From a virus, in the IMG/VR virus record IMGVR_UViG_3300028590_000011, positions 1 through 64,000 of that record: 64,000 bases of DNA, one strand, 5' to 3'. The notes beneath the pieces are model-generated. The model was not told where the DNA came from. It did no database searches and saw only the letters and a program-made list of their open reading frames with translations. Below are positions 13,085 through 45,922 of the stretch, piece by piece (the first letter of the stretch is position 1; each line of letters opens with the position of its first letter). A program made the translations under genes and the position numbers.

Positions 13085-13128
13085 GAAGAACCCCCGGAGC
13101 TCCTTGACTAGCTCAACGGGGGTTCTTC
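13085..13128. terminator. Strong hairpin in divergent control region
   Basis: A 12-base perfect stem (GAAGAACCCCCG / CGGGGGTTCTTC) encloses a loop that contains a second inverted repeat (GAGCT / AGCTC). It lies 45 bases upstream of the first leftward gene. It has the look of a terminator, and may act as an attenuator for leftward transcripts or as an insulator. Confidence 0.6.
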
Positions 13129-13466: not shown

Positions 13467-13495
13467 TTGTAGTGACGTGTATGTTGTGATATGAT
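13467..13495 (+). promoter_or_regulatory. Rightward promoter P1
   Basis: TTGTAG (13467-13472), a 17-base spacer and TATGAT (13490-13495) with an extended -10 TG. Transcription would begin near 13502, ahead of a structured segment and a strong hairpin at 13596-13633, so the RNA would be about 130 bases if terminated there. Confidence 0.7.
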
Positions 13496-13520
13496 GTAGT
13501 CATCAGTTGGTACAGCACCG

Positions 13521-13535
13521 ACTGAGTCACTGAGT
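13521..13535. repeat. ACTGAGT direct repeat, possible operator
   Basis: ACTGAGT occurs twice (13521-13527 and 13529-13535) just downstream of P1. The same 7-mer is half of the palindrome overlapping the leftward promoter at 12665-12675, and ACTGAGTG also lies in the intergenic gap at 2559-2566. The placement suggests a shared operator. Confidence 0.45.
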
Positions 13536-13595
13536 GAGACCCCACCCCGAGGTACGAACTCCTCACAGAGGTGTAGTTGCATCCGCTCAGATCTA

Positions 13596-13633
13596 GCCCG
13601 GTACGGGTCCCTTTAACAAGGGATCTACCGGGC
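13596..13633 (+). terminator. Two-part hairpin between P1 and P2
   Basis: An outer 8-base stem (GCCCGGTA / TACCGGGC) and an inner 8-base stem with a TAAC loop (GGTCCCTT / AAGGGATC, one G-U pair) are separated by a two-base bulge. There is no clear T-run. It would stop or process P1 transcripts just before P2. Confidence 0.55.
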
Positions 13634-13634
13634 A

Positions 13635-13663
13635 TTGCTGTTATGTATACGTTGTGATATACT
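13635..13663 (+). promoter_or_regulatory. Rightward promoter P2
   Basis: TTGCTG (13635-13640), 17 bases, then TATACT (13658-13663) with extended -10 TGA. It is a strong match to the sigma-A-type consensus and drives the first rightward gene unit after a hairpin leader. Confidence 0.75.
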
Positions 13664-13670
13664 TATCTAC

Positions 13671-13728
13671 GTAGCCCTGCGATAGCTATGTCCTGACCCC
13701 ACGGAGGGACTGGTTGTCGCAGGGCTAC
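13671..13728 (+). terminator. P2 leader hairpin (attenuator-like)
   Basis: A 12-base perfect stem (GTAGCCCTGCGA / TCGCAGGGCTAC) encloses a 34-base loop and is followed by TTCTATG. It begins right at the expected transcription start and ends 28 bases before the first gene. The loop holds ATAGCTATG, similar to the P4 leader. Confidence 0.6.
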
Positions 13729-13756
13729 TTCTATGTCCGGACAACGTAGGAGAGAG

Positions 13757-13951
13757 ATGGCCAGAGCAGAGCACAAAGCGTTGAGGAGCTTCCTCCTGGG
13801 CTGTATCCACGGCTCAGTGATCAACAAGGAATTCCCGATGAAGATCGAGAAGGTGGAGGTCGTCCCGGATGGAGAGGGAGACCCCGACCATCTGAGAGTC
13901 ACCAGCTTCTCGGGACGAGTCTGGGAGATCTCCGTGGAGGAGGTGACTTGA
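13757..13951 (+). CDS. Hypothetical small protein (first gene of rightward arm)
   Basis: The product has 64 residues from the ATG at 13757, with GTAGGAGAG directly upstream. It has a helical N terminus (MARAEHKALRSFLLG) and a beta-rich second half (KIEKVEVVPDGEGDPDHLRV). No domain is recognised. As the first gene after promoter P2 and its leader it is probably expressed early and strongly. Confidence 0.72.
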   Translation: MARAEHKALRSFLLGCIHGSVINKEFPMKIEKVEVVPDGEGDPDHLRVTSFSGRVWEISVEEVT

Positions 13952-14229
13952 TGAACATCCCTTGTATGTCCTGTGGGCAGTCCACCTCTGAACCACCTCC
14001 TTTGGGCTGTCTCCATGAGCGGAACCACCTCTGCATCTGTGAGACACCTGAAGCCACGGAAGTTGGTCAGACCCACACCTGCACCAAGTGCGGGTTCATC
14101 AACGAGGTACGGGACATGTTCGATCCCAACTCACGCCTCCCGGAGATCACCAGAGAGCGGATGCGAAAGAGGTATCCAGATGGACTCCTTGGGTGGAGCC
14201 GTACACACGAGAAAGGAACAACTGCATGA
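13951..14229 (+). CDS. Small zinc-ribbon protein
   Basis: The product has 92 residues from the ATG at 13951, overlapping the upstream TGA. Cysteine pairs PCMSCGQ, HLCICE and HTCTKCGF suggest one or two zinc ribbons, followed by a basic C-terminal helix (ERMRKRYPDG). It is coupled to both neighbours. It could contact nucleic acid or host transcription factors; unknown. Confidence 0.7.
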   Translation: MNIPCMSCGQSTSEPPPLGCLHERNHLCICETPEATEVGQTHTCTKCGFINEVRDMFDPNSRLPEITRERMRKRYPDGLLGWSRTHEKGTTA

Positions 14230-14516
14230 CGCAAGAGGAACGAGACATCTCCTTCCCCTACATGGTGAAGGAGGAGGATGTCTCGGACATCGACGTACGA
14301 GGAGGAGCCTCCCTCCTCAACCCGGTGTACTGCATCGGGTGTGAGCTCGGTGGAGACAAGGAGATGAACCTCTCCCAGGCTCTGGACCACGTCCTCCACA
14401 TCCACAAGGTTCGCAAGCACAGGATCTACAAGCCTGGCGTGGAGAAGTTGCAGAGGAACGAGGAGCGCTACCGGGAGCACATGAAGCGGATGAACCAGGA
14501 GAGGGAGAACGCCTGA
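14226..14516 (+). CDS. Hypothetical protein with Cys/His pairs
   Basis: The product has 96 residues from the ATG at 14226 (ATGA overlap). VYCIGCELGGD and a downstream DHVLHIHKV give a CxxC...H...H layout resembling a C2H2 finger. The C terminus is a long charged helix (EERYREHMKRMNQERE). Function unknown. Confidence 0.7.
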   Translation: MTQEERDISFPYMVKEEDVSDIDVRGGASLLNPVYCIGCELGGDKEMNLSQALDHVLHIHKVRKHRIYKPGVEKLQRNEERYREHMKRMNQERENA

Positions 14517-14665
14517 TGGCGAAGTACAAGCGCAAGGTAGGTCTGGCCCTGGAGGCTCGGAGGAAGTCCTGGGACTCGGCTTCTGCCGATGCCCGCAAGG
14601 GAACCCGACGCCCTGGTTCACAGAACCGGAACAAGGGCTACGGAGTCTCCACGGGCCGACGATGA
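14516..14665 (+). CDS. Small basic protein
   Basis: The product has 49 residues, starting in the upstream stop (TGATG) and ending with the same overlap to the next gene. It is Lys/Arg-rich throughout (MAKYKRKVG, EARRKSW, RKGTRRPGSQNRNKG). Likely to bind nucleic acid or acidic proteins. No family is recognised. Confidence 0.6.
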   Translation: MAKYKRKVGLALEARRKSWDSASADARKGTRRPGSQNRNKGYGVSTGRR

Positions 14666-14817
14666 CGACCGTCATCTCTCGGGAGACCTACCTGATCCGG
14701 AGAGGGATCATCCGGCGCATGTCGAACGAGGAGATCAAGCATCTCCTCACAACTGAAGACAAGGACCTCTCCGAGGAGAAGTCCTGGGAACAATGGAAGA
14801 GGGAGTATGAACACTGA
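14662..14817 (+). CDS. Small hypothetical protein
   Basis: The product has 51 residues from the ATG at 14662. It is mostly helical, with a basic centre (YLIRRGIIRRMSNEEIKHLL) and a Trp-containing acidic end (EKSWEQWKREYEH). It overlaps the start of the next gene by 11 bases. The IRRMSNEEIK segment hints at a short HTH, but it is too small to be sure. Confidence 0.58.
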   Translation: MTTVISRETYLIRRGIIRRMSNEEIKHLLTTEDKDLSEEKSWEQWKREYEH

Positions 14818-15190
14818 GAAGCAGCAGGACATCGAGGGTGACGACCTCGCCCTTCTGTACTGCACCAACGCCGACGATCTGGATCGTCCTCACCCTGAGT
14901 CCGTGAAGATCATGGGTGACTGTGGACATCTCGTCTGGATGAGCCCGTCCACGAAGGACATGTACGACAACCCGGATCTGAAGACCAGAGCGAGATGCTC
15001 GCGATGTGTCCCCAGAGAGGAGCTTCGGAACCTGCTGAAGCAGGGTCTCTTCCGGCACACTCCGGCCTCCAAGCAGGAACTGCTCGACTCCGGGATGCCG
15101 GAGCCCCTCGTGGAGGCGCTCTACAACCTCCTGGGCGTCAAGCCGATGACCGAGGAGGAGTACGACAAGCTGGGAGCAGCCGATGCCTGA
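14807..15190 (+). CDS. Hypothetical protein
   Basis: The product has 127 residues. It has an acidic N terminus, a DCGHLVWMS segment and a later RCSRC pair that could together bind zinc, then helical stretches (REELRNLLKQGLF, EALYNLLG). Context: coupled small-gene string under promoter P2. No role is assigned. Confidence 0.7.
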   Translation: MNTEKQQDIEGDDLALLYCTNADDLDRPHPESVKIMGDCGHLVWMSPSTKDMYDNPDLKTRARCSRCVPREELRNLLKQGLFRHTPASKQELLDSGMPEPLVEALYNLLGVKPMTEEEYDKLGAADA

Positions 15191-15530
15191 GATCACCCTG
15201 CGGGTCAAGATCAAGTTCCCGCCCATCGACCACGAGGGCGACGTGAACACCGCCGAGGCCTGCTTCAACGCCTCCAACCTCATAGCGGCGCTTGACCACT
15301 ACGCGGACTGCGCGCTGGAGTACGACGGAAGGTACACCGCCGTCGACTCTCTGGAGGTGTCCTTCCTCGGTGCGCAGAAGCCTTCCGAGGATGACATCGA
15401 GGCGATGAAGGACTGGCACAAGGAGCACTGCGCGGGAGAAGACGGGTGTCAATCTCCGGGTTCCACGGAGCACTGCCCGTACGACTGGGAAGAGGAAGAA
15501 GAGGAAGAAGGTCTCTCTTCTTTCGGCTGA
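15183..15530 (+). CDS. Hypothetical protein with Glu-rich tail
   Basis: The product has 115 residues. The beta-rich N-terminal part (ITLRVKIKFPPID) is followed by a cysteine-containing segment (HCAGEDGCQ, EHCPYDWEEE) and a poly-Glu run. The last motif, HCPYDW, is shared with the gene at 15756 (NCPYDW), which suggests a common ancestor for part of the two proteins. It is the last gene of the P2 unit before promoter P3. Confidence 0.7.
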   Translation: MPEITLRVKIKFPPIDHEGDVNTAEACFNASNLIAALDHYADCALEYDGRYTAVDSLEVSFLGAQKPSEDDIEAMKDWHKEHCAGEDGCQSPGSTEHCPYDWEEEEEEEGLSSFG

Positions 15531-15535
15531 GGCTA

Positions 15536-15565
15536 TTGCATGTCGTGTCTATGATGTGCTATAGT
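15536..15565 (+). promoter_or_regulatory. Rightward promoter P3
   Basis: TTGCAT (15536-15541), 18 bases, TATAGT (15560-15565), extended -10 TGC. It lies directly after the stop at 15530 and is followed by a long structured leader of about 180 bases before the next gene. Confidence 0.7.
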
Positions 15566-15571
15566 TAATGC

Positions 15572-15755
15572 AATGGGCACCCGGTAGGCTGCCCAGCACA
15601 AGTCTTCCGGACCAATAGGTCGCCACCTGAGGTCCGGGAGTGGTGGATCCGGAGTCCCTTTGGGACCTCGCCCCTTGAAGGCCCTCGGGCTGGAGATTCG
15701 TCTCTGGCTCGGGGGCCTTCTTCTGTTTCACCGCCCTTCACAACAGGAGAACAAC
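15572..15755 (+). promoter_or_regulatory. Structured P3 leader RNA
   Basis: Four hairpins lie in series: TGGGC/GCCCA (15574-15595), CCGGACC/GGTCCGG (15607-15637), GTCCC/GGGAC with a three-base loop (15654-15666), and a terminator-like stem at 15677-15720. No open frame with a ribosome site is present. It may be an attenuator or a regulatory RNA. Confidence 0.55.
15677..15720 (+). terminator. P3 leader terminator-like hairpin
   Basis: GAAGGCCC pairs with GGGCCTTC and an inner GAGA-TTCG-TCTC tip gives a UUCG loop. It is followed by TTCTGTTT. It sits before, not after, the gene it precedes, so it probably acts as an attenuator. Confidence 0.65.
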
Positions 15756-16511
15756 ATGAAGAAGTCCACCAAGGTCGGCCTGTACGCCGCCTGCTCCCTC
15801 ATCGGCCTGAAGGTCATCGACACGATCAACTCGATGTTCCACGAGTGGGTCGTCAACGAGATCGAGGCTGCCACCTACGACTACTTCTCGGACCACACTG
15901 AGCAGCTCCGTCAGCACGACGACGAGATCACCGAGCTCTGGCTCCGGCACCCCGACGCCAAGGAGATGTTCGGGGACATGGTGGTCGAGGATGTCTCCCC
16001 CTACCCCATGGACGACGTGGCCGGGTACACCAGCTACGCCCCCAAGACATACGCCCCCGGTCCGGGCTCGGAGATCATGCACCGGCAGTTCTGCCACGAC
16101 AAGACCGAGTGCCAGTTCCCGGACGCCATCGAGAACTGCCCGTACGACTGGACGACCATCAAGACCTTCCAGCAGGAGACGCCGGAGGGGCATCTCATCA
16201 CCGAGGGCTCCTGGGAGAACCTGATCACCCCGCAGGAGGACCACTACGGCCCGATGGACCACATCAACGATCTGGAGTTCGTTGGGTCCAACGTCGCGGT
16301 GGTCGTCCAGCAGGACCGCACCAACGACGAGCTGAAGGTGCAACAGATCGCGGAGTCGGAGGGCACCTCCACGAGGCACTTGCTGCACCAGCACCGGCTC
16401 TGCTTCCAGGCCCAGCGGTCTATCACGGCTGGTTGGGCGTACGTGGACGGTGCCTCTGCTGGCTGCGCCATCCACCCGGACGAGCCCGAGCGCTGTCCGA
16501 TGTCCTTCTGA
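15756..16511 (+). CDS. Membrane-anchored hypothetical protein
   Basis: The product has 251 residues from the ATG at 15756 with ACAGGAG upstream. The N terminus has a short basic stretch and a hydrophobic helix (VGLYAACSLIGLKVI), a likely signal anchor, followed by a soluble domain with Cys/His pairs (FCHDKTECQ, ENCPYDW, RLCFQAQ, GCAIHPDEPERC). The cysteine-rich domain could be stabilised outside the membrane or bind metal. First gene after P3 and its leader, so probably well expressed. Unknown role. Confidence 0.7.
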   Translation: MKKSTKVGLYAACSLIGLKVIDTINSMFHEWVVNEIEAATYDYFSDHTEQLRQHDDEITELWLRHPDAKEMFGDMVVEDVSPYPMDDVAGYTSYAPKTYAPGPGSEIMHRQFCHDKTECQFPDAIENCPYDWTTIKTFQQETPEGHLITEGSWENLITPQEDHYGPMDHINDLEFVGSNVAVVVQQDRTNDELKVQQIAESEGTSTRHLLHQHRLCFQAQRSITAGWAYVDGASAGCAIHPDEPERCPMSF

Positions 16512-16723
16512 TGGATCAGGTCTATATCGATCAGCAGCGAGCGAAGGGGCTCGCTCAGGTTAGACAGATCGCCATCGACGCACGCACAGCACTTGGTCTT
16601 CCTGACGCTGATATGCGGCTACTGGCCAAGATGCGTCAAGACCCTCCAGGGACCGTAAGGACTCTGGATGAACGGCGCGCATTCGAGCGTCGGTGGAACT
16701 ACCTCGTGAGCCTGCGCTCATGA
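16511..16723 (+). CDS. Small helical protein
   Basis: The product has 70 residues from the ATG at 16511, overlapping the upstream TGA. It is helical and basic, ending FERRWNYLVSLRS. No domain is recognised. A strong terminator hairpin begins three bases after its stop, so it closes the short P3 unit of two genes. Confidence 0.65.
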   Translation: MDQVYIDQQRAKGLAQVRQIAIDARTALGLPDADMRLLAKMRQDPPGTVRTLDERRAFERRWNYLVSLRS

Positions 16724-16725
16724 CC

Positions 16726-16760
16726 CGAGAGGGACCTGTCTGTGGGGCAGGTCCCTCTCG
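16726..16760 (+). terminator. Hairpin terminator
   Basis: A 13-base perfect stem (CGAGAGGGACCTG / CAGGTCCCTCTCG) with a 9-base loop, followed by TCTTCCCC. It lies immediately after the stop at 16723. Confidence 0.75.
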
Positions 16761-16811
16761 TCTTCCCCAACTGAATAAGTCCATACAGACACAGATGAAT
16801 AGGAGATGCAC

Positions 16812-17120
16812 ATGTACGTCTTGGAGATCCGGTTCTGCGACCAGCAGACCGGCGTGGTCGAACTCCGTGGCGATGACCAGGTCGCTCGTGACGCCTGGGC
16901 CGAGTTCGCTGACAAGCTCCTGCTCGGGCAGGACTTCGGCGTCGCAACCCCGGGAGGGACCGGCGCACACCCCGTTCAGGTCAGCTTGGTTGGTTACAAC
17001 CAGCTCGACCCCAACGACCCCGGAGAACTGCACTACTCGGTGTACAGGACCTGCTCGGACCTGCACCCCAAGAGCGCACCGGAGCCGAAGCTCATCGTTG
17101 CGAAGGGAGCACTGCGATGA
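16812..17120 (+). CDS. Hypothetical protein
   Basis: The product has 102 residues. The second ATG (16812) is chosen because ATAGGAG lies six bases before it; the ATG at 16806 touches the ribosome site. It starts with a beta strand (MYVLEIRFCD) and has a compact mixed fold. No motif is recognised. It is coupled by ATGA to the next gene. Confidence 0.68.
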   Translation: MYVLEIRFCDQQTGVVELRGDDQVARDAWAEFADKLLLGQDFGVATPGGTGAHPVQVSLVGYNQLDPNDPGELHYSVYRTCSDLHPKSAPEPKLIVAKGALR

Positions 17121-17608
17121 ACAACAACGAGCTGATCGAAGAGGCCAAGAAGGTTGGCTTCACCTACCACGGCAAGACGCCCAACGGGCACTTGCTGTTC
17201 CTCAACGACGAGGGCAAGAGGGTCACCGCCGCTGGAACCGCGTCGGACTGGCGTTCGCACTTGAACGCTATCGCCGCCATGGAGCGGATCTCCGGCATCA
17301 AGAGGATGAAGCCCAACCACGGGAAGCCCCGGAAGAAGGGCGACACCTCAGGGTTCCTGAACACCATCAGGACAGAATCCGCTGAGCACTGGAGCGAGAA
17401 GGTCGGGTCCATCGTGGACGAGTACAAGACCCTCGCTCTGGAGTTCCGGATCATCTCGTCGGCCGAAGCAGATCGGACCGACTTGAACCGAGCGATGGAG
17501 ATCATCCGTCGCATGGCTCGTCTGGAGGACGTGCTGACCGAGTTGCGTCAGCCCATCCCGCAGACGGACCTCCCCGCCAACATCAACCACATGAAGAAGA
17601 AGGTGTGA
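17117..17608 (+). CDS. Hypothetical protein with HicA-like N-terminal half
   Basis: The product has 163 residues. The first 60 residues (IEEAKKVGFTYHGKTPNGHLLF, then a short strand and WRSHLNAIA) resemble the small dsRNA-binding-like fold of HicA/YcfA proteins, though the catalytic His of HicA (G-S-H) is replaced by a GHLLF context and cannot be confirmed. The second half is helical. No HicB-like partner is adjacent. Function unknown. Confidence 0.6.
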   Translation: MNNNELIEEAKKVGFTYHGKTPNGHLLFLNDEGKRVTAAGTASDWRSHLNAIAAMERISGIKRMKPNHGKPRKKGDTSGFLNTIRTESAEHWSEKVGSIVDEYKTLALEFRIISSAEADRTDLNRAMEIIRRMARLEDVLTELRQPIPQTDLPANINHMKKKV

Positions 17609-17609
17609 C

Positions 17610-17870
17610 GTGATCACCGAAGAGGACAAGGGCACGACCGTCGCAGTGAAGTTCTGCGACGCCACGATCCACGAGGAGACGTACGACCCCACCGCCTGGG
17701 GGAACATCTCGGCGGTCGAGGCGTACAACAAGTACGTGAAGCAGGCGAACGACAACCACACGGTCTTCGCCAAGATCCCGCACATCCTCAACGTCGAGAT
17801 GAGCGGCAAGGAGCAGTCCTGCTCCGAGCGCTTCACCTGCACCTGCTCCCGGCAGGCGGTGCCCGCATGA
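17610..17870 (+). CDS. Hypothetical protein
   Basis: The product has 86 residues from a GTG at 17610. It has a beta-rich N terminus (TTVAVKFCDATIHEE), a helical centre and a Cys-rich end (SCSERFTCTCSRQ) that may bind metal. It is coupled to the next gene by ATGA. Confidence 0.66.
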   Translation: MITEEDKGTTVAVKFCDATIHEETYDPTAWGNISAVEAYNKYVKQANDNHTVFAKIPHILNVEMSGKEQSCSERFTCTCSRQAVPA

Positions 17871-18169
17871 GCACCGTCACGGAGGAGCTGTACGTCCCCG
17901 AGGACATCGACAAGACCGCGCCGTTCACCATCGCCACCTCGTACTGCACGGGTCGGACCACAGTGGACTACCGGACCACTGCTCGCTCGGCGGTGGTCCA
18001 CTACACGCACAAGATCACCTCAGGCGTGCGCTGCGAGGACCAGAACATCGCCGGTGACGTTCCCGTTCACATCCGGCTGGTGTCCTACATCAGCCGCTAC
18101 AAGGACGGCGAGATCCGGCAGCACATCGACTCTGGACCACTGATCTGCCCCTGCACGAGCGCCGAGTGA
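17867..18169 (+). CDS. Hypothetical protein
   Basis: The product has 100 residues, Thr/Ile/Val-rich and probably mostly beta, ending with CPCTSAE. No domain is recognised. It is followed by a small membrane-protein gene starting inside its stop. Confidence 0.66.
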   Translation: MSTVTEELYVPEDIDKTAPFTIATSYCTGRTTVDYRTTARSAVVHYTHKITSGVRCEDQNIAGDVPVHIRLVSYISRYKDGEIRQHIDSGPLICPCTSAE

Positions 18170-18279
18170 CCGCTCTCGTCCTCATCATCTCGTTCGCCGT
18201 CATGGTTGTAGCGCTCACCTATGGGTGGCTACGCAGCCGTGGCGGCGAACAGTCGTCTACAGGAGAAGAACATGGGTGA
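18166..18279 (+). CDS. Small single-span membrane protein
   Basis: The product has 37 residues from a GTG at 18166 that overlaps the upstream TGA. One hydrophobic helix (ALVLIISFAVMVVALTYGW) is followed by a positive RSR segment, giving N-out/C-in topology by the positive-inside rule. It could be a small inhibitor of host envelope proteins or a holin-like gene; there is no evidence for lysis linkage here. Confidence 0.6.
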   Translation: MTALVLIISFAVMVVALTYGWLRSRGGEQSSTGEEHG

Positions 18280-18400
18280 TATCGGAGACAACCCGCGCGA
18301 GATCGAGCTCGTGCCGGTGCCGGAGACCTCTCCGCTTCCGGAGCCGATCAAGCTTCCGGAGCCCGTCAAGGAGCCTGAGCCGGAACCGGTGGCTGCCTGA
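18272..18400 (+). CDS. Small proline/glutamate-rich protein
   Basis: The product has 42 residues, starting eight bases inside the previous gene with AGGAG upstream. It has a repeated LPEP/KEPEP pattern (LPEPIKLPEPVKEPEPEP), an extended rod-like or TonB-like Pro-rich sequence. Probably unstructured. It lies between two membrane proteins. Confidence 0.6.
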   Translation: MGDIGDNPREIELVPVPETSPLPEPIKLPEPVKEPEPEPVAA

Positions 18401-19170
18401 TGACCGGAGAGACCTTCAACAACTACCAAGTTGACCGCCCCGTCCATCTGGGAACGATCAGGGGCTACCGAGCTTGGGGTGTTGACGACCTCGGTCGTCT
18501 GACTCCAGCCACACGCGCCGACTACATCTGGAGTCCTGGCATCAACCGCGCGGTCTGTAAGTGCGGTAACTACGCGAGGAACGTGGCCGCGCGGCACCAC
18601 AGTTGCGGGTTCTACGCCTACTTCAGTGGCAGCAACGACTACGCGAAGACTGGCGACATCCACGGGATCATCGAGGCCTGGGGAACTACCACGGTCGGTG
18701 ACCGTGGCTTTCGCGCCGAGTACGGCAAGATCCTCGCCTTCGTGGATCCCGTGGTGGTCTACCGCGTGAAGTGGGTCCACCAGTTCGCCAAGTGGTGCCA
18801 CCGCAGGGACTACGAAGTCTTCTTCGGGCTCGGCGGGCTCCTTCTCGGGCTCGGCAGTTTGATCGGAGGCATCTTGTGCATGATCTTCGGGCCAGATTGG
18901 TCGACTCAGCTCTGCGGTGTCGGCCTGGCGCTCGGCATCTTCGGTCTGGTGCACGCGATGCACTCGGATACCTGCGAGTACGAGTCGAAGGACTATCGCA
19001 AGATCCAGCTGGTCAAGCACAACTACCCAGATGTGCAGTGGTTCCGCAACCACCGGGAGATGATCCGCGCCTTCCCAGTCGAGGAGCCATCGGTTCCTGA
19101 GGTCACGCCCGAGAACTACTCGGACTTCTGGACCACCACTGGCACGCCGAATCAGCGCAAGGACAACTGA
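18400..19170 (+). CDS. Membrane protein with two transmembrane helices
   Basis: The product has 256 residues. The N-terminal half is soluble, with Cys/His sites (AVCKCGNYARN, HHSCGFYAY) that may bind zinc, and two adjacent hydrophobic helices follow at about residues 145-185 (GLGGLLLGLGSLIGGILC and LCGVGLALGIFGLVHAM). The C-terminal part is soluble. It may act on the host envelope or surface; no family is recognised. Confidence 0.68.
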   Translation: MTGETFNNYQVDRPVHLGTIRGYRAWGVDDLGRLTPATRADYIWSPGINRAVCKCGNYARNVAARHHSCGFYAYFSGSNDYAKTGDIHGIIEAWGTTTVGDRGFRAEYGKILAFVDPVVVYRVKWVHQFAKWCHRRDYEVFFGLGGLLLGLGSLIGGILCMIFGPDWSTQLCGVGLALGIFGLVHAMHSDTCEYESKDYRKIQLVKHNYPDVQWFRNHREMIRAFPVEEPSVPEVTPENYSDFWTTTGTPNQRKDN

Positions 19171-19197
19171 ATACCCAACCAACAACAGGAGATGAGA

Positions 19198-19959
19198 ATG
19201 GCACGAGCAACGACAAAGACCGCCAACCAGGAGCCCACTCTGGAGCAGCTCCAGGAGGAACTGGCGGCAGCGAAGCGCAAGTTGCGTGAGCAGCGGATGA
19301 CCACCGTGCAGGTGGCGCAGAAGTACGCGGCGCAGCACAACCTCTGCTCCGTGGTGGACCAGGCGCTCACCGAGGCAGGTCTGCTCGGTGGCAGTGTCAG
19401 CAAGAAGGTCTCGATGTTGATCCCGGTCGAAGTCGTCATGGGCATCGATGGCGATCTGGTCGAGAACATGACCGAGGAGGAGATCAAGCAGGCCATCGCG
19501 GAGATGGCCAAGCCCACGTCCGTCAACTGGGGTGGATCCATCGGTCCGGTCACCTCGGTGGCCAACGGACGAGTCCGTCGTACCGAGCCTGTCTCCACTT
19601 TCGGAGAAGTGCAGGTGCTCAGTGTCGAGGATCCGCCCTCTCTGACCACCGTGAGCAACGACAACGGCTGGTCGAACCCGCCCAACGGGCACGTCGCGCT
19701 GTACACGGCCCCCGAAGGGCGGAAGCTGCACTTCGTCACGGCGGTGGAGACCAGTCATCACCGCGCGGTTGCGGTCGAGATCAACGGAATGACCTTCTAC
19801 ACCGTCCGCACTCCGCTGTGTGGTGCCTCGGTGTCGTACTACGGCGCTCCGTGGGCCATTGACTCGCCGCGCAAGGTCAGCGTAGGCACGCGCGATGGCA
19901 TCTGCCAGGGCTGCCGTGACCTCGCGCAGACGCGGTACGGATGGAGGCTCGGCCGATGA
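19198..19959 (+). CDS. Hypothetical protein with N-terminal coiled coil
   Basis: The product has 253 residues. The ATG at 19198 has better spacing to AACAGGAG than the ATG at 19192. Residues 10-40 form a coiled coil (LEQLQEELAAAKRKLREQR), and the C-terminal half is beta-rich with GICQGCRDLAQ. It precedes a second coiled-coil gene and a vWA gene, so it may belong to the same complex. Confidence 0.68.
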   Translation: MARATTKTANQEPTLEQLQEELAAAKRKLREQRMTTVQVAQKYAAQHNLCSVVDQALTEAGLLGGSVSKKVSMLIPVEVVMGIDGDLVENMTEEEIKQAIAEMAKPTSVNWGGSIGPVTSVANGRVRRTEPVSTFGEVQVLSVEDPPSLTTVSNDNGWSNPPNGHVALYTAPEGRKLHFVTAVETSHHRAVAVEINGMTFYTVRTPLCGASVSYYGAPWAIDSPRKVSVGTRDGICQGCRDLAQTRYGWRLGR

Positions 19960-20540
19960 CCGGCACCGACGAGGCGGTCGAGACTGCCAAGCAGGCGATG
20001 GAGGACCAGCGTCCTCTGAACGCCACGCAGGGTCGCAACCTCCAGAGGATCGTGAAGAACGACTTCGAGAGGCTGAAGGCCGAACTGGAGCTCTTCCGGG
20101 TCGAGGAGAGGACTCGCCGTGAGCAGGAGATCCGGGAGAACTACCGGACCAGCAGAGAGAGCCGAACCACGCTGGAGAACGAGATCCGAGTTCTCAACCG
20201 CCAGTACCGGGCGGAAGCGGAGCGCCTCCGAGGCAGAGCGCGCGAGATGGGTCTCACGGTCAACCAGGGCCTCACAGCTCCGAGCGAAGTCGTGGTCTTC
20301 GGCGAGGAGCGCCTCAACCAGGACATCCAAGCGATGTACCGCGAGGTCAACGGAGATGTGAACACTGCTCTCCGTACCGCAGAGGCCAAGTTCTACGAGG
20401 CCGAGCGGCTCGTGCTCATGGCCACCATCACGACCCAGGCAGAGAAGATCCTGTCCGGCATCCCCACGTCTCAGCAGCTCATGGCTGAGGCATACGAGCA
20501 GCGCGCCAAGCGCAAGGAACTCACAGGAGGAACACAGTGA
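19956..20540 (+). CDS. Coiled-coil protein upstream of vWA gene
   Basis: The product has 194 residues, almost wholly helical and highly charged (QRIVKNDFERLKAELELF, TLENEIRVLNRQYRAEAERL). It starts inside the upstream stop (ATGA) and ends inside the vWA start. Coiled-coil proteins next to vWA proteins often form a scaffold for complex assembly. A specific role is inferred only. Confidence 0.68.
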   Translation: MTGTDEAVETAKQAMEDQRPLNATQGRNLQRIVKNDFERLKAELELFRVEERTRREQEIRENYRTSRESRTTLENEIRVLNRQYRAEAERLRGRAREMGLTVNQGLTAPSEVVVFGEERLNQDIQAMYREVNGDVNTALRTAEAKFYEAERLVLMATITTQAEKILSGIPTSQQLMAEAYEQRAKRKELTGGTQ

Positions 20541-21280
20541 GCATCTCTCTGGAGAAGCGCACCGAGAACGCCGGGATCAGCCTGGTGAAGGTGATGTCCG
20601 AGGCCGCAGCACAGGGTCTGAACGTCGATGACCTCACTGCGCAGTGCGTGCTGGTCATGGACTTCTCGGGCTCGATGGACTACCGCTACCGCAGCGGTGA
20701 GGTCCAGCAGCTCGCAGAGCGGACGCTGGCGCTGTCCCTGACCGGTCTGGACGACGACGGGAACATCCAGATCCACTTCTTCCACACCAAGGTCTTCCCG
20801 GAGATCGAGGTGGACGCGTCGAACTACACCGGCGCGGTGGACGAGTTCACCCGCAAGAACACCATGGGTGGCACCGCCTACGCTCCCGCGATCCGACAAG
20901 TCATCGAGAGCGTCACCGGTGGCAAGACCAAGAAGAAGGGTCTGTTCCGAAAGGAGACCCCAGCGGCTCCGGACGGTCCGGCCATGCCGACGCTGGTCTT
21001 CTTCGTCACGGACGGCGAGCCGAACGACCGGCAGGAGACCATCCAGCTCCTGAAGGACGCTTCGGGGCTGCCGATCTTCTGGCAGTTCCTCGGCGTCGGC
21101 TACTCCCCGGAGTTCCTGAAGGAGCTCGACACCATGGGCGGACGTGTCCTCGACAACGTCGGCCTCACCGAGGTGCCCTCGACGGAGTCCATGTCCGACG
21201 AGGAGTACTACGAGACGGTCTTGAAGGAGTTCGTCTCGTCCTGGGTGCCTGCGGCTCGCGCCAAGAGCATCATCGCGTAA
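20537..21280 (+). CDS. von Willebrand factor A domain protein
   Basis: The product has 247 residues. The MIDAS metal site is intact: D42-F-S44-G-S46 (VMDFSGSM), with a downstream TAYAP and VTDGEPND. The pattern resembles TerF/TerY-type vWA proteins known from tellurium-resistance and phage genomes; their role is scaffolding of protein complexes, often with AAA+ ATPases. An AAA+ gene lies at 27251 in the same arm. The partner is unknown. The domain assignment is strong. Confidence 0.85.
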   Translation: MSISLEKRTENAGISLVKVMSEAAAQGLNVDDLTAQCVLVMDFSGSMDYRYRSGEVQQLAERTLALSLTGLDDDGNIQIHFFHTKVFPEIEVDASNYTGAVDEFTRKNTMGGTAYAPAIRQVIESVTGGKTKKKGLFRKETPAAPDGPAMPTLVFFVTDGEPNDRQETIQLLKDASGLPIFWQFLGVGYSPEFLKELDTMGGRVLDNVGLTEVPSTESMSDEEYYETVLKEFVSSWVPAARAKSIIA

Positions 21281-21311
21281 CCCTTCCAACCAACAAGGAG
21301 AGCAACACATC

Positions 21312-21566
21312 ATGACGAACACCGCAGTGGAGCAGGGGATGCTCTGCATCATGGACAAGACCGGCGACACCCGCATCATGTGGGACCCCCGCAACGCCGA
21401 CGAGGTCGACATCGCCAAGGCCGCGTTCAAGAAGGCCAAGGACAAGGGCATGGTCGCCTACGCCGTCGACAACACCACCGGCGAGAAGGTGGACGGCGAG
21501 GTCATCCGCGAGTTCGACCCGGCGCGCGGCAAGATCATCATGGCCCCGCAGCTCGTCGGCGGATGA
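21312..21566 (+). CDS. Small hypothetical protein linked to vWA gene
   Basis: The product has 84 residues. It reads DTRIMWDPRNADEVDIAKAAF then AYAVDNTTGEKVDGEVIREFD, a mixed alpha/beta small domain. It follows the vWA gene after a C/A-rich spacer with AAGGAGAG. The function is unknown; similar small genes accompany vWA genes in actinophages. Confidence 0.66.
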   Translation: MTNTAVEQGMLCIMDKTGDTRIMWDPRNADEVDIAKAAFKKAKDKGMVAYAVDNTTGEKVDGEVIREFDPARGKIIMAPQLVGG

Positions 21567-21859
21567 CCGACGAGATCACTGAGGAGACCGTCCTGCGGCA
21601 CATCTGCGAAGGGTGCGGCAAGGACGAGAACCTGACTGTTGCCGAGGCCTTCGAGGCGGGGTGGGACTACCCACCCCGTCTTGGGGTCTTCGGAGTCGTC
21701 TCCCCGCGTACCTGCGGGGAGTGCGGCATCGAGAAGACGCTCTGGTGGCGAATCCAGACCGGCGAGGTTCGTCCCGACGACCTCAGCTCGGAGGAGATGG
21801 AGTTCATCCAACGGGTCGTCAACGAACCCGAGTCCATCCTCGTGAAGGAGGAGAAGTGA
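21563..21859 (+). CDS. Zinc-ribbon protein
   Basis: The product has 98 residues from the ATG at 21563 (overlaps TGA). Cysteine pairs CEGCGK and CGECGI about 50 residues apart define a zinc ribbon. The C-terminal helix is acidic. It probably binds nucleic acid or protein. Coupled to upstream and downstream genes. Confidence 0.7.
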   Translation: MTDEITEETVLRHICEGCGKDENLTVAEAFEAGWDYPPRLGVFGVVSPRTCGECGIEKTLWWRIQTGEVRPDDLSSEEMEFIQRVVNEPESILVKEEK

Positions 21860-21860
21860 G

Positions 21861-22700
21861 ATGCCACGCATCAGCCAAGAAGTCGCAGCGGAGGTCGTGG
21901 TGGACCTCACCGAGACTGAGCGCGGGATCATCCCGTCCGATGAAGTCCAGAAGGTCGTCTGGCAAGGGTGGGCTGACGTGACACCCACCTGGACCCAGTG
22001 GACCAACAGCACCACCGTCACCTACCGGATCCAGCAGGATCGGGTCTGGAACCGATGGACTGTGGACGACGCCTGGACCGTCATGAACCCGGCGATCAAC
22101 GGGACCATCACGTACAACACCGCGTTCACCACGACGCAGGACTACGTGTGGACCAATTGGAACGCCCAGAGCGACACCGTCTACACCCGGACGTACCACC
22201 AGATGGACACGGGTCGGACGGCCGAGGAGATCCAGCACCTGGCGGATCGTCGTCAGGCGCTGAACGAGGCCGAGTCGCGTCGTCGGCTCCGGTATGAGCA
22301 GGAGCGCGAGCAGGCTGCTGCTCGGGCCCAGGCCCATGACCGGGGCATGGAACTGCTGAAGATGGTCATGTCCCATGAGGAGCTGGCGCTCTTCGAGATC
22401 GCGGGCAAGATCCATGTCCGTGGTTCCGAAGGTGGTCTGTACGAGATCGACACTCAGTACGGAGGCGTGCACGGCAACGTCGTGCAGGTCGATGAACACG
22501 GGTGCCAGCTCGGACGGATCTGCGTCGCACCGCAGATGCGGCTCGACAGCGGCGTGCTGCCGCTCTCGGACGGCTACGTCGGTCAGTACCTGGCGATCAA
22601 GCACCAGGAGGCCCTGTTCCGGGCGACCGGCAACTGGTCTCAACGGCGTACCTGCCAGCAGCCGAACGTCCCGATCCTCGGGGAGCAGCGAGCGGCATGA
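21861..22700 (+). CDS. Hypothetical protein with Thr/Trp-rich repeats and coiled coil
   Basis: The product has 279 residues. Residues about 30-110 are rich in Trp, Thr and Asn in a repeated pattern (TPTWTQWTNSTT, TVDDAWTVMNP, TQDYVWTNWNAQ), followed by a charged coiled coil (RRRLRYEQEREQAAARAQA) and a compact C-terminal domain with CQLGRICVAPQ. The repeat may be a surface-exposed beta structure. The function is unknown; it sits at the end of the vWA cluster. Confidence 0.65.
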   Translation: MPRISQEVAAEVVVDLTETERGIIPSDEVQKVVWQGWADVTPTWTQWTNSTTVTYRIQQDRVWNRWTVDDAWTVMNPAINGTITYNTAFTTTQDYVWTNWNAQSDTVYTRTYHQMDTGRTAEEIQHLADRRQALNEAESRRRLRYEQEREQAAARAQAHDRGMELLKMVMSHEELALFEIAGKIHVRGSEGGLYEIDTQYGGVHGNVVQVDEHGCQLGRICVAPQMRLDSGVLPLSDGYVGQYLAIKHQEALFRATGNWSQRRTCQQPNVPILGEQRAA

Positions 22701-22885
22701 GCTACGAGGGTGGAGCGGGGGATGGTCACATCGACATCCCCCGCTTTGCTCTTGTCCCGCGAGGTAAGCAGCGGGTCAAGGGCCGGGTCCTGTCATACGA
22801 AGGGAACGGCTACTTCACCGTTCTCATCCCAGGTGACATCAAGGTGTTCATGCACCGTGATCGTCTGATCTTCGCCAACAAGTAG
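22697..22885 (+). CDS. Small OB/S1-like beta protein
   Basis: The product has 62 residues from the ATG at 22697. The pattern VKGRVLSYEGNGYFTVLI then IKVFMHRDRLIF looks like a short beta-barrel of the SH3/OB type that binds RNA or protein; the small size limits certainty. Coupled to the preceding gene. Confidence 0.6.
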   Translation: MSYEGGAGDGHIDIPRFALVPRGKQRVKGRVLSYEGNGYFTVLIPGDIKVFMHRDRLIFANK

Positions 22886-22892
22886 GAGAGAG

Positions 22893-23066
22893 ATGCTCAA
22901 CCATCCTTTGGCTAAGCACATCTTGTGGGCGGTCGTGCTGGTCGTCCTTGCCTGCCTCGGCATCGTCGCGTTCGGTGACGAGCAGGCAGTGGAAGTAGCA
23001 AGCGGAGTGCTGGCCGGTATCGGCCTCTGCGTCGTACTGATCATCTTGATGATCCCAATGTTCTAA
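22893..23066 (+). CDS. Small two-span membrane protein
   Basis: The product has 57 residues from the ATG at 22893 with GTAGGAGAG upstream. Two hydrophobic helices (LWAVVLVVLACLGIVAF and GIGLCVVLIILMIPMF) flank a short acidic loop (GDEQAVE). Topology and size resemble small phage membrane proteins such as holin-like or exclusion proteins, but there is no lysis cassette beside it. Confidence 0.62.
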   Translation: MLNHPLAKHILWAVVLVVLACLGIVAFGDEQAVEVASGVLAGIGLCVVLIILMIPMF

Positions 23067-23074
23067 GGAGAGAA

Positions 23075-23428
23075 GTGAACACCGTACGAATGAATCGAAC
23101 CGAGCTGCTGGAGCAGCTTCGGGACAACCAGACCAAGCACGCGGCTGACTACCGCGAGGCGATGGTGGTCTGGAAGAAGAAGGCAGCCAAGGCTCTGGCG
23201 AAGGCTGCCAAGAAGGCGGAGAAGGGCAAGATCACCCTCAACCCCCTTCAGGACCTCCCCAAGCCCGTCCAGTTCATGGAGGAGTACGACGACGCCATCG
23301 CGCGTGTCATGGTCGACACCCGCGAGGAGTTGGAGCTGGATGACCACCAGTTCCGGCAGTGGGTCCAGGACAAGTGGGTCTGGCAGCACCAGTTCGCTGC
23401 CTCGACCTCTCTCTACAACGGGAGGTGA
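23075..23428 (+). CDS. Hypothetical basic helical protein
   Basis: The product has 117 residues from a GTG at 23075 with AAGGAGAG upstream. It has a Lys/Ala-rich central helix (KKKAAKALAKAAKKAEKGK) like a DNA-binding or histone-like tail, then a beta/alpha end. Unknown function. Confidence 0.66.
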   Translation: MNTVRMNRTELLEQLRDNQTKHAADYREAMVVWKKKAAKALAKAAKKAEKGKITLNPLQDLPKPVQFMEEYDDAIARVMVDTREELELDDHQFRQWVQDKWVWQHQFAASTSLYNGR

Positions 23429-23429
23429 C

Positions 23430-23684
23430 ATGAAGACGCGGATCATCGGAGCCGTCCTTCTGGGGGCGGCTCTTCTCATCGGTGGCTGCGCCAAGGTGTC
23501 GGAGCCGTACAACGACGCTGACCGAGGCAAGACCAACAACGACAAAGCGGACATCGTCACCTTCCCGGACGGGTTCTCCAACGTCGCCACCAAGTGCGAC
23601 CACGGAAACCGTGTGTACGTCATCTACAAGGGCGACTCGGCCTACGGCTCCGTCGCCGTGGTACCCAACGCGGAGGATTGCTGA
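23430..23684 (+). CDS. Predicted lipoprotein
   Basis: The product has 84 residues from the ATG at 23430. The signal peptide is clear: basic MKTR, hydrophobic IIGAVLLGAALL, lipobox IGGC with the cysteine near residue 19. The mature domain of about 65 residues has paired cysteines (TKCDHG and terminal EDC). Exported phage lipoproteins in other phages can block superinfection by masking receptors or DNA entry; this role here is inference. Confidence 0.8.
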   Translation: MKTRIIGAVLLGAALLIGGCAKVSEPYNDADRGKTNNDKADIVTFPDGFSNVATKCDHGNRVYVIYKGDSAYGSVAVVPNAEDC

Positions 23685-24091
23685 TGGTGAGGAGCGCCCA
23701 CGGCACCAGGTCTGCTGACTTCGTCAAGGAGCAGGGTTGGCGGGTCGGTGACCGCATCGTCGGTGGTCCGATCATGGGCGGTCCTAACAAAGACAGGGTG
23801 GTGGAGGCTGGGTTAACCATCGTGATCACCGCCATCGGCGAGGAGATGGTGCTCACGAAGACCGTCAAGAGAGAGCCCAGCCCTTATGGCTACCGCGACC
23901 GAGAGATGCCCATGACTTTCACGGAGCGCGACTGGGAGAAGATCGAACCCTTCTCGATCGAGAAGGCGATCCAGGAACTCAACAGACACGGTCGGAACTC
24001 GTTGACCGGGCGCGCGATTGATCTGTTGACCGACGTGTTGCTGGTGCACACAACTACAGAGGAGAGGAAAGAGCCGATATGGCCGAAGTGA
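23684..24091 (+). CDS. Hypothetical protein
   Basis: The product has 135 residues from the ATG at 23684 overlapping the lipoprotein stop. It begins with a Gly-rich turn (GGPIMGGPNKD), a beta-rich middle (GLTIVITAIGEEMVLTK) and a helical C-terminal. No domain is recognised. Confidence 0.64.
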   Translation: MVRSAHGTRSADFVKEQGWRVGDRIVGGPIMGGPNKDRVVEAGLTIVITAIGEEMVLTKTVKREPSPYGYRDREMPMTFTERDWEKIEPFSIEKAIQELNRHGRNSLTGRAIDLLTDVLLVHTTTEERKEPIWPK

Positions 24092-24276
24092 CGGAGATGA
24101 CCGAGGAAGAGCGCCTCGCTGAGTTCGAGACGCTGTGCGTCGAGTACAAGCTCCAGAAGGATGCGTTGGTGAAGGCGTCCCTGGCCCTCTTGGAGTCCGG
24201 AGTGCCGTTCCCCACCGTGCTCCGACTGATGGCTCAGCACGGCGCTGTCGACCACGCCCCGAAGGGGATGGCATGA
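24079..24276 (+). CDS. Small helical protein
   Basis: The product has 65 residues, overlapping the upstream gene by 13 bases. It is acidic at the N terminus (MTEEERLAEFETL) and helical. Coupled to a small membrane protein by ATGA. Unknown. Confidence 0.64.
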   Translation: MAEVTEMTEEERLAEFETLCVEYKLQKDALVKASLALLESGVPFPTVLRLMAQHGAVDHAPKGMA

Positions 24277-24464
24277 GTGAGAACACCGCGCTCGCCGTCT
24301 ACATGACCATGCTCATCCTCACGCTGATCGTCGCTGGCGTCAGCGCCTTCGCCTACTACAAGAGCAAGGGCGAGATGGGCGGGATCGTGTTCATCCTGGC
24401 CGCATGTGCCGCTATCGCGCTGGGTTCGTATCTCATCGACGCAGCGGAAAGGGCACTCGCGTGA
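24273..24464 (+). CDS. Small two-span membrane protein
   Basis: The product has 63 residues. Two hydrophobic helices (MTMLILTLIVAGVSAF and GGIVFILAACAAIALGSYL) are joined by a short YYKSKGE loop. It may act in the inner membrane. No homology is recognised; it could be holin-like, but the context does not support lysis. Confidence 0.62.
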   Translation: MSENTALAVYMTMLILTLIVAGVSAFAYYKSKGEMGGIVFILAACAAIALGSYLIDAAERALA

Positions 24465-24580
24465 TCAACGACATGTTGCAGGTTCTCTGGACCCTGCGCT
24501 TCCACATCGGCTTCGGGCTGCTGCTCGTTCTGGGTGGCTACCTGTACGCCTGCGGCTCTACCGTGAGGATGGAGGACTGA
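24461..24580 (+). CDS. Small single-span membrane protein
   Basis: The product has 39 residues from a GTG at 24461 that overlaps the upstream TGA. One hydrophobic helix (IGFGLLLVLGGYLYACG) is preceded by a short soluble stretch. It is directly coupled to the two-span membrane protein, so the two may form a complex. Confidence 0.58.
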   Translation: MINDMLQVLWTLRFHIGFGLLLVLGGYLYACGSTVRMED

Positions 24581-25281
24581 TGGAGGTCCCGGACGGACAC
24601 TTCAGCTTGCCGATGGCGATGATGTTGGCTCGGTCCAACGTCGTCTCTGAGGCTCATGAGATGGACGAGAGGATTCGTCCATTCCCGGAGCAGTACGCCA
24701 TGGGTCCTGGTTGCTACGGGATCGTGGCGAGTTCCAGGTCCATGGTCGAGCAGGACTTCACACTCTTGAAGCTGCTCGATCCCGAGGAGCACAAGGACGC
24801 CTTCCCGAACTGGGAGGAGCGGTTGCAACGCTCCTACGTTCTGTGCGAGTGGCTCTCCAACGACGACCCCGAGGGCGACATCGGCTGGTTCAGCCGCGTG
24901 AAGCTGGTGGAGATCACCGAGGAACAGTACGCCGAGGTGAAGACCTGGATCAGGGAAGACGCGCTCCCCGACGAGCCGCCCGACTGGTTGGACGAGGCCT
25001 ACGCGCTCTACACCGAGCGGCTCTCCAAGATGGCCCCGGACGATGTCACCGTGAACGTCCTGTGCGGTGAGTGTGGGTCGCGCAAGGTCGAGATCCACAT
25101 CTACCACGCCATCCGCAAGGCTGCCCCCGCTGGTCAAGTCGAGAAGGACGGCAAGACCGTCTTCCTCCCCATGGGTCATCGCGGCTCGTCCGACTGCGTC
25201 GCGCAGATCCACCTGCACTGTCAGGACTGCAACGCGCGACGCGACCTGGACGACGACGAGATCGGCTTCGACGCCCACTGA
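24580..25281 (+). CDS. Hypothetical protein with C-terminal zinc ribbon
   Basis: The product has 233 residues from the ATG at 24580. The N-terminal 150 residues are soluble alpha/beta, with acidic stretches. The C-terminal region has CGECGSRK and HLHCQDCNAR pairs, a zinc-ribbon type arrangement. It ends just before promoter P4. Function unknown. Confidence 0.66.
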   Translation: MEVPDGHFSLPMAMMLARSNVVSEAHEMDERIRPFPEQYAMGPGCYGIVASSRSMVEQDFTLLKLLDPEEHKDAFPNWEERLQRSYVLCEWLSNDDPEGDIGWFSRVKLVEITEEQYAEVKTWIREDALPDEPPDWLDEAYALYTERLSKMAPDDVTVNVLCGECGSRKVEIHIYHAIRKAAPAGQVEKDGKTVFLPMGHRGSSDCVAQIHLHCQDCNARRDLDDDEIGFDAH

Positions 25282-25284
25282 GGG

Positions 25285-25313
25285 TAGATGTATAGCATGA
25301 AATGTGCTATACT
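25285..25313 (+). promoter_or_regulatory. Rightward promoter P4
   Basis: TATACT at 25308-25313 with extended -10 TGC; the -35 is weak (TAGATG at 25285-25290, 17 bases upstream). The segment TGTGCTATACTTATC is almost identical to the P2 core. It precedes a leader and terminator hairpin. Confidence 0.65.
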
Positions 25314-25351
25314 TATCACGTCCCTGCGAGAGCTATGCCTTCGCACACCAC

Positions 25352-25378
25352 AGCCCCAAGCTAACCCGGCTTGGGGCT
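25352..25378 (+). terminator. P4 leader terminator-like hairpin
   Basis: A 10-base perfect stem (AGCCCCAAGC / GCTTGGGGCT) with a 7-base loop, followed by TTTCTTTATG. It lies 30 bases downstream of the P4 start and 28 bases before the gene ATG, so most transcripts would stop there unless antiterminated. Confidence 0.75.
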
Positions 25379-25406
25379 TTCTTTATGTCGAAAGGAAGTG
25401 ACAGAC

Positions 25407-26513
25407 ATGGCTACTGCCACTGTCATTGCGGACGGGCCTCCGATGACGGAGCCCGTTGCGCACAAGAAGTCCTCCAAGGGCTTCTGGCGTTCCATCGGGG
25501 ACGCCATCTCCAGCGCGGGTCACCGCGCATGGGAGGCCATCAAGTTCGGTGGCCGCAAGACCCTGGAGGGTCTGAAGTTCTTGGGTCGTCAGGCCGTCCG
25601 TGGAGCGAAGGCATCTGGAAACCTCGCTCTCCGTGGGGTTGGCTACCTGGGTGCTGGGATCATGTGGCTGGCGCTGACCATCCTGAACGTCGCCACCGCG
25701 CTCGTCGTGGGCGTCGTGATGGTGCTGGCCATGATCATCGTCGGCGTGCTCATGCTCGCCGGTGTCTTGATCGGCAAGGTGATCGACATCCTCGACTACT
25801 GGGTGCTCGGCTCCTTCCGTTGGCTCGCTCTCGGGCGACCCGCTCCGTTCAATGAGTTCCTCGCGGACCGTCGCGCTGCTGCGCTGGACAAGAACATGAT
25901 CCGCATCGAGAAGCTCGGCAACTGGGTCATGCGCAAGTTCAACCTGCCCACCGCAGAGGACTACACGCGACTCCTGGACGACGACATCGTGGTCGAGGAC
26001 TACGACTACGACCCGGACGACCCGATCCGCATCAAGCAGCAGCAGGCGCTGGAGGACAAGGTCGCGGTGCGGTTGCAGGAGGACGTGGACAACAAGACCA
26101 TGTCCTTCCCCGGTGGTCGAGCCCGCATGGTCGACCACGACGACCCGTTCGCGGAGGGCACCGACTACACCGCCAGCATCCCGCTGATGCTCGCACCGGA
26201 GAACGAGGGCAAGACCTTCATCGAGTACGACTGGACCTCCTACGTCCACGACCCGGACTTCCCCGTGATGATCGACATCATGGAGAACACCACGATGGTT
26301 CCTTCGGAGAAGGCCTACTGGGTGGGTCGCCGGGAGATGATCAAGTACTACAAGGACAACCCGGACGGGCTGGACGAGCACGGTCGGGCGTGGGCGGCGG
26401 TCTACCACCGCTACCGCAAGCAGACGGCACTGCCCATGAAGTACATCCGTACCGGCTTCATGGACATGGTGAACGAGCTGAAGGCCGCTCGCCGGTCCGC
26501 TGCCTCGGTCTAG
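25407..26513 (+). CDS. Large membrane protein with amphipathic N-terminal helices
   Basis: The product has 368 residues from the ATG at 25407. The first 75 residues carry a repeated amphipathic pattern with evenly spaced Lys/Arg and Gly/Ala (AISSAGHRAWEAIKFGGRKT, LKFLGRQAVRGAKASG). A long hydrophobic region of about 55 residues follows (two transmembrane helices: MWLALTILNVATALVVGVVM and LAMIIVGVLMLAGVLIGKVI), and a soluble acidic domain ends the protein. First gene after promoter P4, with an attenuator-like leader, so its expression seems tightly controlled. The role is unknown; membrane remodelling or host takeover are possibilities. Confidence 0.7.
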   Translation: MATATVIADGPPMTEPVAHKKSSKGFWRSIGDAISSAGHRAWEAIKFGGRKTLEGLKFLGRQAVRGAKASGNLALRGVGYLGAGIMWLALTILNVATALVVGVVMVLAMIIVGVLMLAGVLIGKVIDILDYWVLGSFRWLALGRPAPFNEFLADRRAAALDKNMIRIEKLGNWVMRKFNLPTAEDYTRLLDDDIVVEDYDYDPDDPIRIKQQQALEDKVAVRLQEDVDNKTMSFPGGRARMVDHDDPFAEGTDYTASIPLMLAPENEGKTFIEYDWTSYVHDPDFPVMIDIMENTTMVPSEKAYWVGRREMIKYYKDNPDGLDEHGRAWAAVYHRYRKQTALPMKYIRTGFMDMVNELKAARRSAASV

Positions 26514-28843: not shown

Positions 28844-28881
28844 GGCTTCACCGCAGTACCTGTTGGAAGGGGAAACCTCAT

Positions 28882-28907
28882 TGGGGGCGGGCTTCGGCCT
28901 GCCCCCA
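28882..28907 (+). terminator. UUCG hairpin terminator
   Basis: An 11-base stem with a cTTCGg loop (TGGGGGC-GGGC / GCC-T-GCCCCCA, one G-U pair) lies 39 bases after the AAA+ stop. It is followed by GGGGCCTTTCTGCGTTT. The last 15 bases are repeated after the terminator at 35935-35980. Confidence 0.8.
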
Positions 28908-28961
28908 GTGGGGCCTTTCTGCGTTTACCCCCAGACCCATAACAAGCACATAGGGAGAGTC

Positions 28962-45920: not shown

Positions 45921-45922
45921 GT

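Follow-up and report, generated by a model that had tools for sequence, protein, structure and literature searches.

Operon leaders of an uncultured phage lineage suggest that host RNA polymerase is altered to run through terminators

Here we describe the operon leaders in a 64,000-nucleotide stretch of viral DNA (the window; part of the 80,039-base IMG/VR virus record IMGVR_UViG_3300028590_000011), whose arrangement suggests that the phage alters host RNA polymerase so that it runs through transcription stops. Each rightward early or middle operon appears to open with the same module, in which a sigma-70 extended -10 promoter is followed by a 5'-proximal hairpin and an intrinsic terminator. 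The module recurs in related phages, and further strong terminators lie inside the operons, away from promoters of this type. Processive antitermination, loaded from either RNA or DNA, has in our judgement a slightly better than even chance of being the explanation.

Promoters and leaders of the window

A preliminary description of this DNA, made from its letters, had proposed three promoters with extended -10 elements, P2, P3 and P4. All three were found where it had placed them, and position 13467, at which its region began, proved to open the -35 hexamer of P1, a fourth promoter (Table 1). The four are predicted sigma-70-type extended -10 promoters by virtue of hexamers 17-18 bp apart and TGn before the -10. 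Exact copies of the motif TGTGNTATANTTA are present at P2, P3 and P4, and no other site in the 80 kb carries it with one mismatch or fewer. With a position weight matrix (PWM) trained only on promoters of other phages in the lineage, P2, P1, P3 and P4 were the top four sites in the 80 kb (18.6-23.3), against 10.4 for the fifth site and a maximum of 17.1 in 15 shuffled genomes; because the training phages are relatives, this ranking is evidence of conservation and does not independently prove promoter activity. A generic TTGACA/TATAAT scan listed none of the four, since it required TTGACA; the -35 of P4 is poor.

Each leader had also been said to carry a terminator-like hairpin before the first gene. 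A stable hairpin is present in all three, and the leaders of P3 and P4, with a G+C-rich hairpin and a T-run ahead of the first gene, have the form of canonical intrinsic terminators; in the scan they outranked every other terminator-like site of the region. For P2 the claim holds only in part: the hairpin at 13671-13728 is very stable (-43.9 kcal/mol, z -8.0), but terminator status is least certain there, because the T-run is merely TTCT and the scan did not list the site. CATGTCC or CATGCCC follows the T-run of many terminators in the lineage (25379-25390 in the window), and two phiC31 terminators (17031 and 21592) carry a similar CATGCC tail.

The sequence likeness between the P2 and P4 leaders, pointed out in the same description, is more than chance: the shared element CCCTGCGA[TG]AGCTATG is identical at 15 of 16 positions, whereas the best of 200 shuffles reached 12. 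Its copies lie 11 and 8 nt from the -10, and this varying distance is easier to reconcile with an RNA element than with a DNA operator. No covariance model of Rfam 15 matched the window at its gathering score, the leaders giving sub-threshold matches only. No boxA is conserved among the leaders; a single CTTTAACAA (13611-13619), which resembles the Escherichia coli boxA core and lies in a hairpin of the P1 unit, is restricted to the P1 region of the window, and its reading as a boxA was rejected, the sequence being absent from three relatives.

Table 1. Promoters, leader elements and associated genes of the window
Feature	Position	Strand	Description
Promoter P1	13467..13495	+	-35 TTGTAG 13467-13472, N17, -10 TATGAT 13490-13495; extended -10 (TGTGA); PWM 22.1
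P1 transcript region	13502..13639	+	no recognised open reading frame (ORF); structured, z -4.6; end hairpin about 13595-13633 abuts P2 -35; transcription start inferred
Promoter P2	13635..13663	+	-35 TTGCTG 13635-13640, spacer 17, -10 TATACT 13658-13663; extended -10; PWM 23.3, top site of the 80-kb genome
P2 leader hairpin and TTCT run	13671..13732	+	stem GTAGCCCTGCGA/TCGCAGGGCTAC; terminator-like, weak T-tract
Shared 5' element, copy 1 (P2)	13675..13690	+	CCCTGCGATAGCTATG
First gene, P2 operon	13757..13951	+	start 13757 after AGGAGAG, or in-frame 13733; no conserved family
Promoter P3	15536..15565	+	-35 TTGCAT 15536-15541, spacer 18, -10 TATAGT 15560-15565; extended -10; PWM 20.6
P3 leader 5' hairpin	15574..15595	+	TGGGCA/TGCCCA; sequence unlike P2/P4; 5' segment z -2.3
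P3 leader intrinsic terminator	15677..15728	+	20-pair stem 15677-15720, T-run TTCTTCTG; -37 kcal/mol
First gene, P3 operon	15756..16511	+	ORF call
Promoter P4	25285..25313	+	-35 TAGATG 25285-25290, spacer 17, -10 TATACT 25308-25313; extended -10; PWM 18.6
Shared 5' element, copy 2 (P4)	25322..25337	+	CCCTGCGAGAGCTATG
P4 leader 5' hairpin	25325..25345	+	TGCGA/TCGCA; z -2.1
P4 leader intrinsic terminator	25352..25384	+	AGCCCCAAGCTAACCCGGCTTGGGGCT and TTCTTT; 11-pair hairpin 25352-25378; -20 kcal/mol
First gene, P4 operon	25407..26513	+	basic, apparently membrane-spanning protein; upstream of AAA ATPase 27203-28843
Strong intrinsic terminator inside P4 operon	28877..28912	+	after the ATPase gene; co-directional genes downstream; best upstream PWM -0.5

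The module in nine related phages

The order of promoter, 5' hairpin, intrinsic terminator and gene was found at 20 leaders of the P2-P4 type in nine distinct phages (the window and the uncultured relatives G001, G002, G004, G009, G010, G011, G014 and G015), and seven phages besides the window have a P4-type leader bearing a terminator. The leaders are about 60-160 nt long, with at least one hairpin and a terminal T-run. When 5' segments were folded without the terminator (for window P2, the entire leader) and compared with dinucleotide shuffles, the mean z was -3.4, with 19 of 21 below -1 and 12 below -3; the set of 21 includes the window P1 unit. A 5' sequence common to leaders within one phage was found in the window (P2/P4), G001 (P2/P4), G002 (P2/P3/P4) and G009 (P3/P4), that is, in four of the seven phages having two or more leaders. 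In position and size the leaders fit the put element of phage HK022. In the first relatives found, an analogous element, AGTTGACGGGAGAGG (one copy AGTTGACGGGAGAAG), follows the -10 at a distance of 6 nt in five promoters. Stems are retained where sequences change: between the orthologous P4 leaders of G004 and G015, the outer stem GTACC/GGTAC is kept while the inner GAGC/GCTC becomes GGGAC/GTCCC, and the terminator changes from CAGCT/AGCTG to CGGCT/AGCCG with both hairpins preserved, paired changes seen by eye in very few sequences and without a covariation statistic.

Strong intergenic terminators on the early strand were surveyed in four phages: about half lie mid-operon without a module-type promoter, and the rest lie behind one. 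The mid-operon terminators are at 28877 in the window; 15428, 22701, 24830 and 26335 in G001; 25879 and 27637 in G002; and 42717, 44028 and 50266 in G010, the best promoter score being at most 8.0. The G001 terminator at 13776 has a promoter-like site with a low matrix score (7.1), and that at 36184 in G010 stands behind a P1-type promoter. Internal terminators have been regarded as a good indicator that processive antitermination is at work (PMC8955417).

The phage itself has a G+C content of about 60% and encodes a DnaE polymerase, a DnaB helicase, a portal and a tape measure (1809 aa; 40497-45926, minus strand) with an M23 peptidase domain toward its C-terminus. For DnaE and DnaB the best-scoring matches, about 30-36% identical, come from phages of Gordonia and Brevibacterium; together with the gene content, this indicates that its hosts are probably actinobacteria. 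Window positions 1-25000 had no DNA match among 50,697 phage records, and no close isolated phage was found by DNA search, with the tail protein at 36370-38589 or with the putative zinc-ribbon protein at 24580-25281; a genome search using an ATPase alignment gave no relative, and the genes that open the P2 and P3 operons, used as queries, returned nothing. A search for hosts or prophages with GGGGCTTTTTGCATGTCC returned 28 matches dispersed over unrelated taxa, which were taken as chance. The uncultured relatives were reached first via the ATPase gene and more of them via the tail protein and DnaB; G012 and G013, apparent near copies of G011 over the compared stretches, are outside the count of nine. 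Genes were called with a simple script of our own, which leaves their starts, and part of the intergenic assignments, approximate. Under one rule for promoter-plus-terminator pairs, the stretches from ChisanaKitsune, Cantare, Fryberger and McProf had none and the window lineage one to four, although the rule is not very sensitive, as window P2 and P4 escaped it.

Several other features neighbour the modules. Directly 5' of P4, and at the matching place in G001, G002 and G009, lies the gene (24580-25281) for the conserved 233-aa protein with two CxxC pairs; its predicted structure has a mean predicted local distance difference test score of 66 and no structural match at E<=0.001, and weak zinc-ribbon or TFIIS-like matches were not counted as evidence. 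The rightward region also holds a vWA-TerF-like protein (20537-21280), the AAA ATPase and an 84-aa protein (21312-21566) that is 50-61% conserved in three relatives. A 49-aa basic protein (14516-14665), looked at as a possible counterpart of the arginine-rich N protein, has neither a family match nor a homologue among the relatives. On the minus strand, a hairpin recognised by eye (AAGAACCCCCG/CGGGGGTTCTT, 13086-13127) lies upstream of the leftward DnaB genes, and G001 and G002 have leftward terminators at the matching place.

Passage of the leader terminators

Antitermination, one of two mechanisms put forward in the preliminary description, fits these observations better than the other, attenuation. 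We infer where transcription starts, that the terminators function in the host, and that polymerase is modified by some agent. Polymerase starting at a module would undergo modification close to the promoter, in the simplest case through the nascent 5' hairpin or a factor bound to it, and would then pass the leader terminator and, further on, the operon-internal ones; unmodified polymerase would halt at the terminator. Loading through RNA in this manner seems to us somewhat short of evenly probable. It is doubtful that the leaders represent a new RNA-based system of phages probably of actinobacteria, in which a short 5'-terminal hairpin opening every early operon, kept in architecture and re-specified in sequence in each clade, would license polymerase past both leader and internal terminators. 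The clade-wide module would in any case lend itself to small, directly testable reporter constructs, and it marks jointly controlled operons in an unstudied phage group; if it works, it could supply read-through elements for actinobacterial genetics.

Several points count against antitermination of this kind. Sequence searches recognised no N- or Q-like antiterminator, nor any put-like element; the preliminary description had likewise recognised no N- or Q-like antiterminator. Window P3 lacks the element shared by P2 and P4; the leaders within G010, G011 and G014 are alike in structure and not clearly in sequence; and the 5' segments of G001 P4 and G009 P4 do not clearly fold above chance. The nine phages are relatives, so their leaders are not independent, and the genes in mid-operon may be served by promoters of a different kind. 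Finally, many T-tracts are short (TTTC, TTCT), so that leakage alone could suffice.

On a rival view the terminators are leaky insulators, which mainly end the preceding operon and pass a fixed share of new transcripts, giving low, unregulated expression. Besides the imperfect T-tracts, the surroundings of P4 speak for it: the -35 starts 3 nt past the preceding stop codon, and the sole terminator there, with none detected from the P3 operon up to P4, is 3' of the promoter. A pure insulator, however, would be expected 5' of the promoter, and leakage leaves unexplained both the structured 5' hairpin and the sequence common to P2 and P4. We consider this explanation unlikely, though a serious contender.

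Antitermination might instead be loaded from DNA, by a phage protein of the Q or AlpA type that binds between the -35 and -10, boards polymerase and carries it past terminators, the 5' hairpin being secondary. The spacer between the -35 and the extended -10 has a mean information of 0.65 bits per column, compared with 0.15 upstream of the -35 and a chance expectation of 0.10, which is more conservation than sigma-70 requires, and AlpA of Pseudomonas aeruginosa acts likewise at a pair of promoters that have terminators immediately before the first gene (PMC7969949). Since the spacer is conserved above chance, sequence does not separate RNA from DNA loading. On the other hand, a repressor or a host sigma preference could also explain the conservation, P1 has a similar spacer and drives an apparently non-coding unit, and no candidate protein was found in the searches described above. 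A common dyad operator over the -10 was rejected: the dyad is significant only at window P4 (GTATAGCAtgaaatgTGCTATAC, p<0.01) and two G001 promoters, and marginal at G014 P3. A protein of this type is in our view rather improbable.

The preliminary description had the hairpin decide whether the operon is read. The recurrence of the module, the retained stems and the internal terminators agree with a controlling role, but classical attenuation, in which a ligand, ribosome or protein acting on the leader toggles the terminator against a competing fold, finds no general support. When transcripts were folded as far as the loop of the terminator, 13 of 19 leaders had no more than 3 nt of its 5' arm paired upstream; leader ORFs and ATGs vary in frame, length, sequence and presence; and no riboswitch family reached its Rfam gathering score in the window. 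There are leaders to which attenuation could apply: in window P3, G001 P4 and G011 P2, 8-15 nt of the arm can pair upstream, window P3 standing out with 15 of 20 arm nucleotides pairable, and the upstream hairpin of G002 P2 repeats the terminator stem sequence. As the general mechanism we judge it quite improbable.

The P1 unit may be a candidate non-coding RNA. P1 has a counterpart at the equivalent place in five further phages (G001, G002, G010, G011 and G014), and in all six the P1-P2 interval of about 130-275 nt holds no conserved ORF and folds at z -1.9 to -5.8; in most of them a terminal hairpin abuts the P2 -35, the last hairpin of G001 being less clear. The resemblance of this unit to a non-coding RNA gene, and the small-RNA-like length, hairpins and terminal T-run of the leaders, would suit a scheme in which most transcripts end at the terminator, the short leader RNAs act in trans and read-through is a by-product. 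The shared 5' sequence is mostly base-paired rather than exposed, and pairing of the P1 RNA with the leaders was no better than with shuffles, so a trans-acting P1 RNA was rejected; we regard the scheme as very improbable.

Comparison with known systems

Processive antitermination is well known from lambdoid phages and from some Bacillus and plasmid operons. In the open-access literature searched, which mostly leaves subscription papers outside it, no comparable RNA element has been described in actinobacteriophages. The put RNA of HK022 antiterminates without further factors, through the zinc-binding domain of the beta' subunit, and the specificities of nut and N vary between phages, comparable to the clade-to-clade change of conserved sequence described here. 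As in the lambda N/nut system, every early transcript of the lineage carries a small hairpin near its beginning, with terminators after it; unlike that system, the lineage has no conserved boxA and no recognised N-like protein, and each first gene is preceded by a terminator.

In HK022, putL follows closely on PL and forms two stem-loops in about 70 nt (PMC9378689). The likeness of putL and putR to the present leaders consists in a structured RNA of about 70 nt close behind early promoters, the repetition of the element in similar form behind more than one promoter, and the terminators that follow (PMC9378689). In contrast, an Rfam scan found no put match in the leaders, hairpin shapes vary by clade, the terminator is held within the leader, and the host phylum is probably another; an action on polymerase would be by analogy with put.

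The lambda Q system at pR' and AlpA (PMC7969949) resemble the module in that the promoter and a short leader lead to an intrinsic terminator ahead of the first gene, with more terminators later, and in the conserved spacer between -35 and -10, whereas here several operons per genome carry the module, no Q- or AlpA-like protein was found by sequence, and the dyad is not general. The conAn system of pLS20-family conjugation operons likewise combines a control element at the operon start with internal terminators, but comprises a protein, ConAn1, and an RNA, conAn2, at the start of a single long operon (PMC8955417). Short conserved elements also recur across other actinobacteriophage genomes, namely the start-associated sequences in Cluster K mycobacteriophages (PMC3203893) and, in Cluster O, repeats of 17 bp (PMC4351075); those adjoin start codons or are scattered palindromes, whereas the elements described here stand at the predicted transcription start and are predicted to form RNA stems before a terminator.

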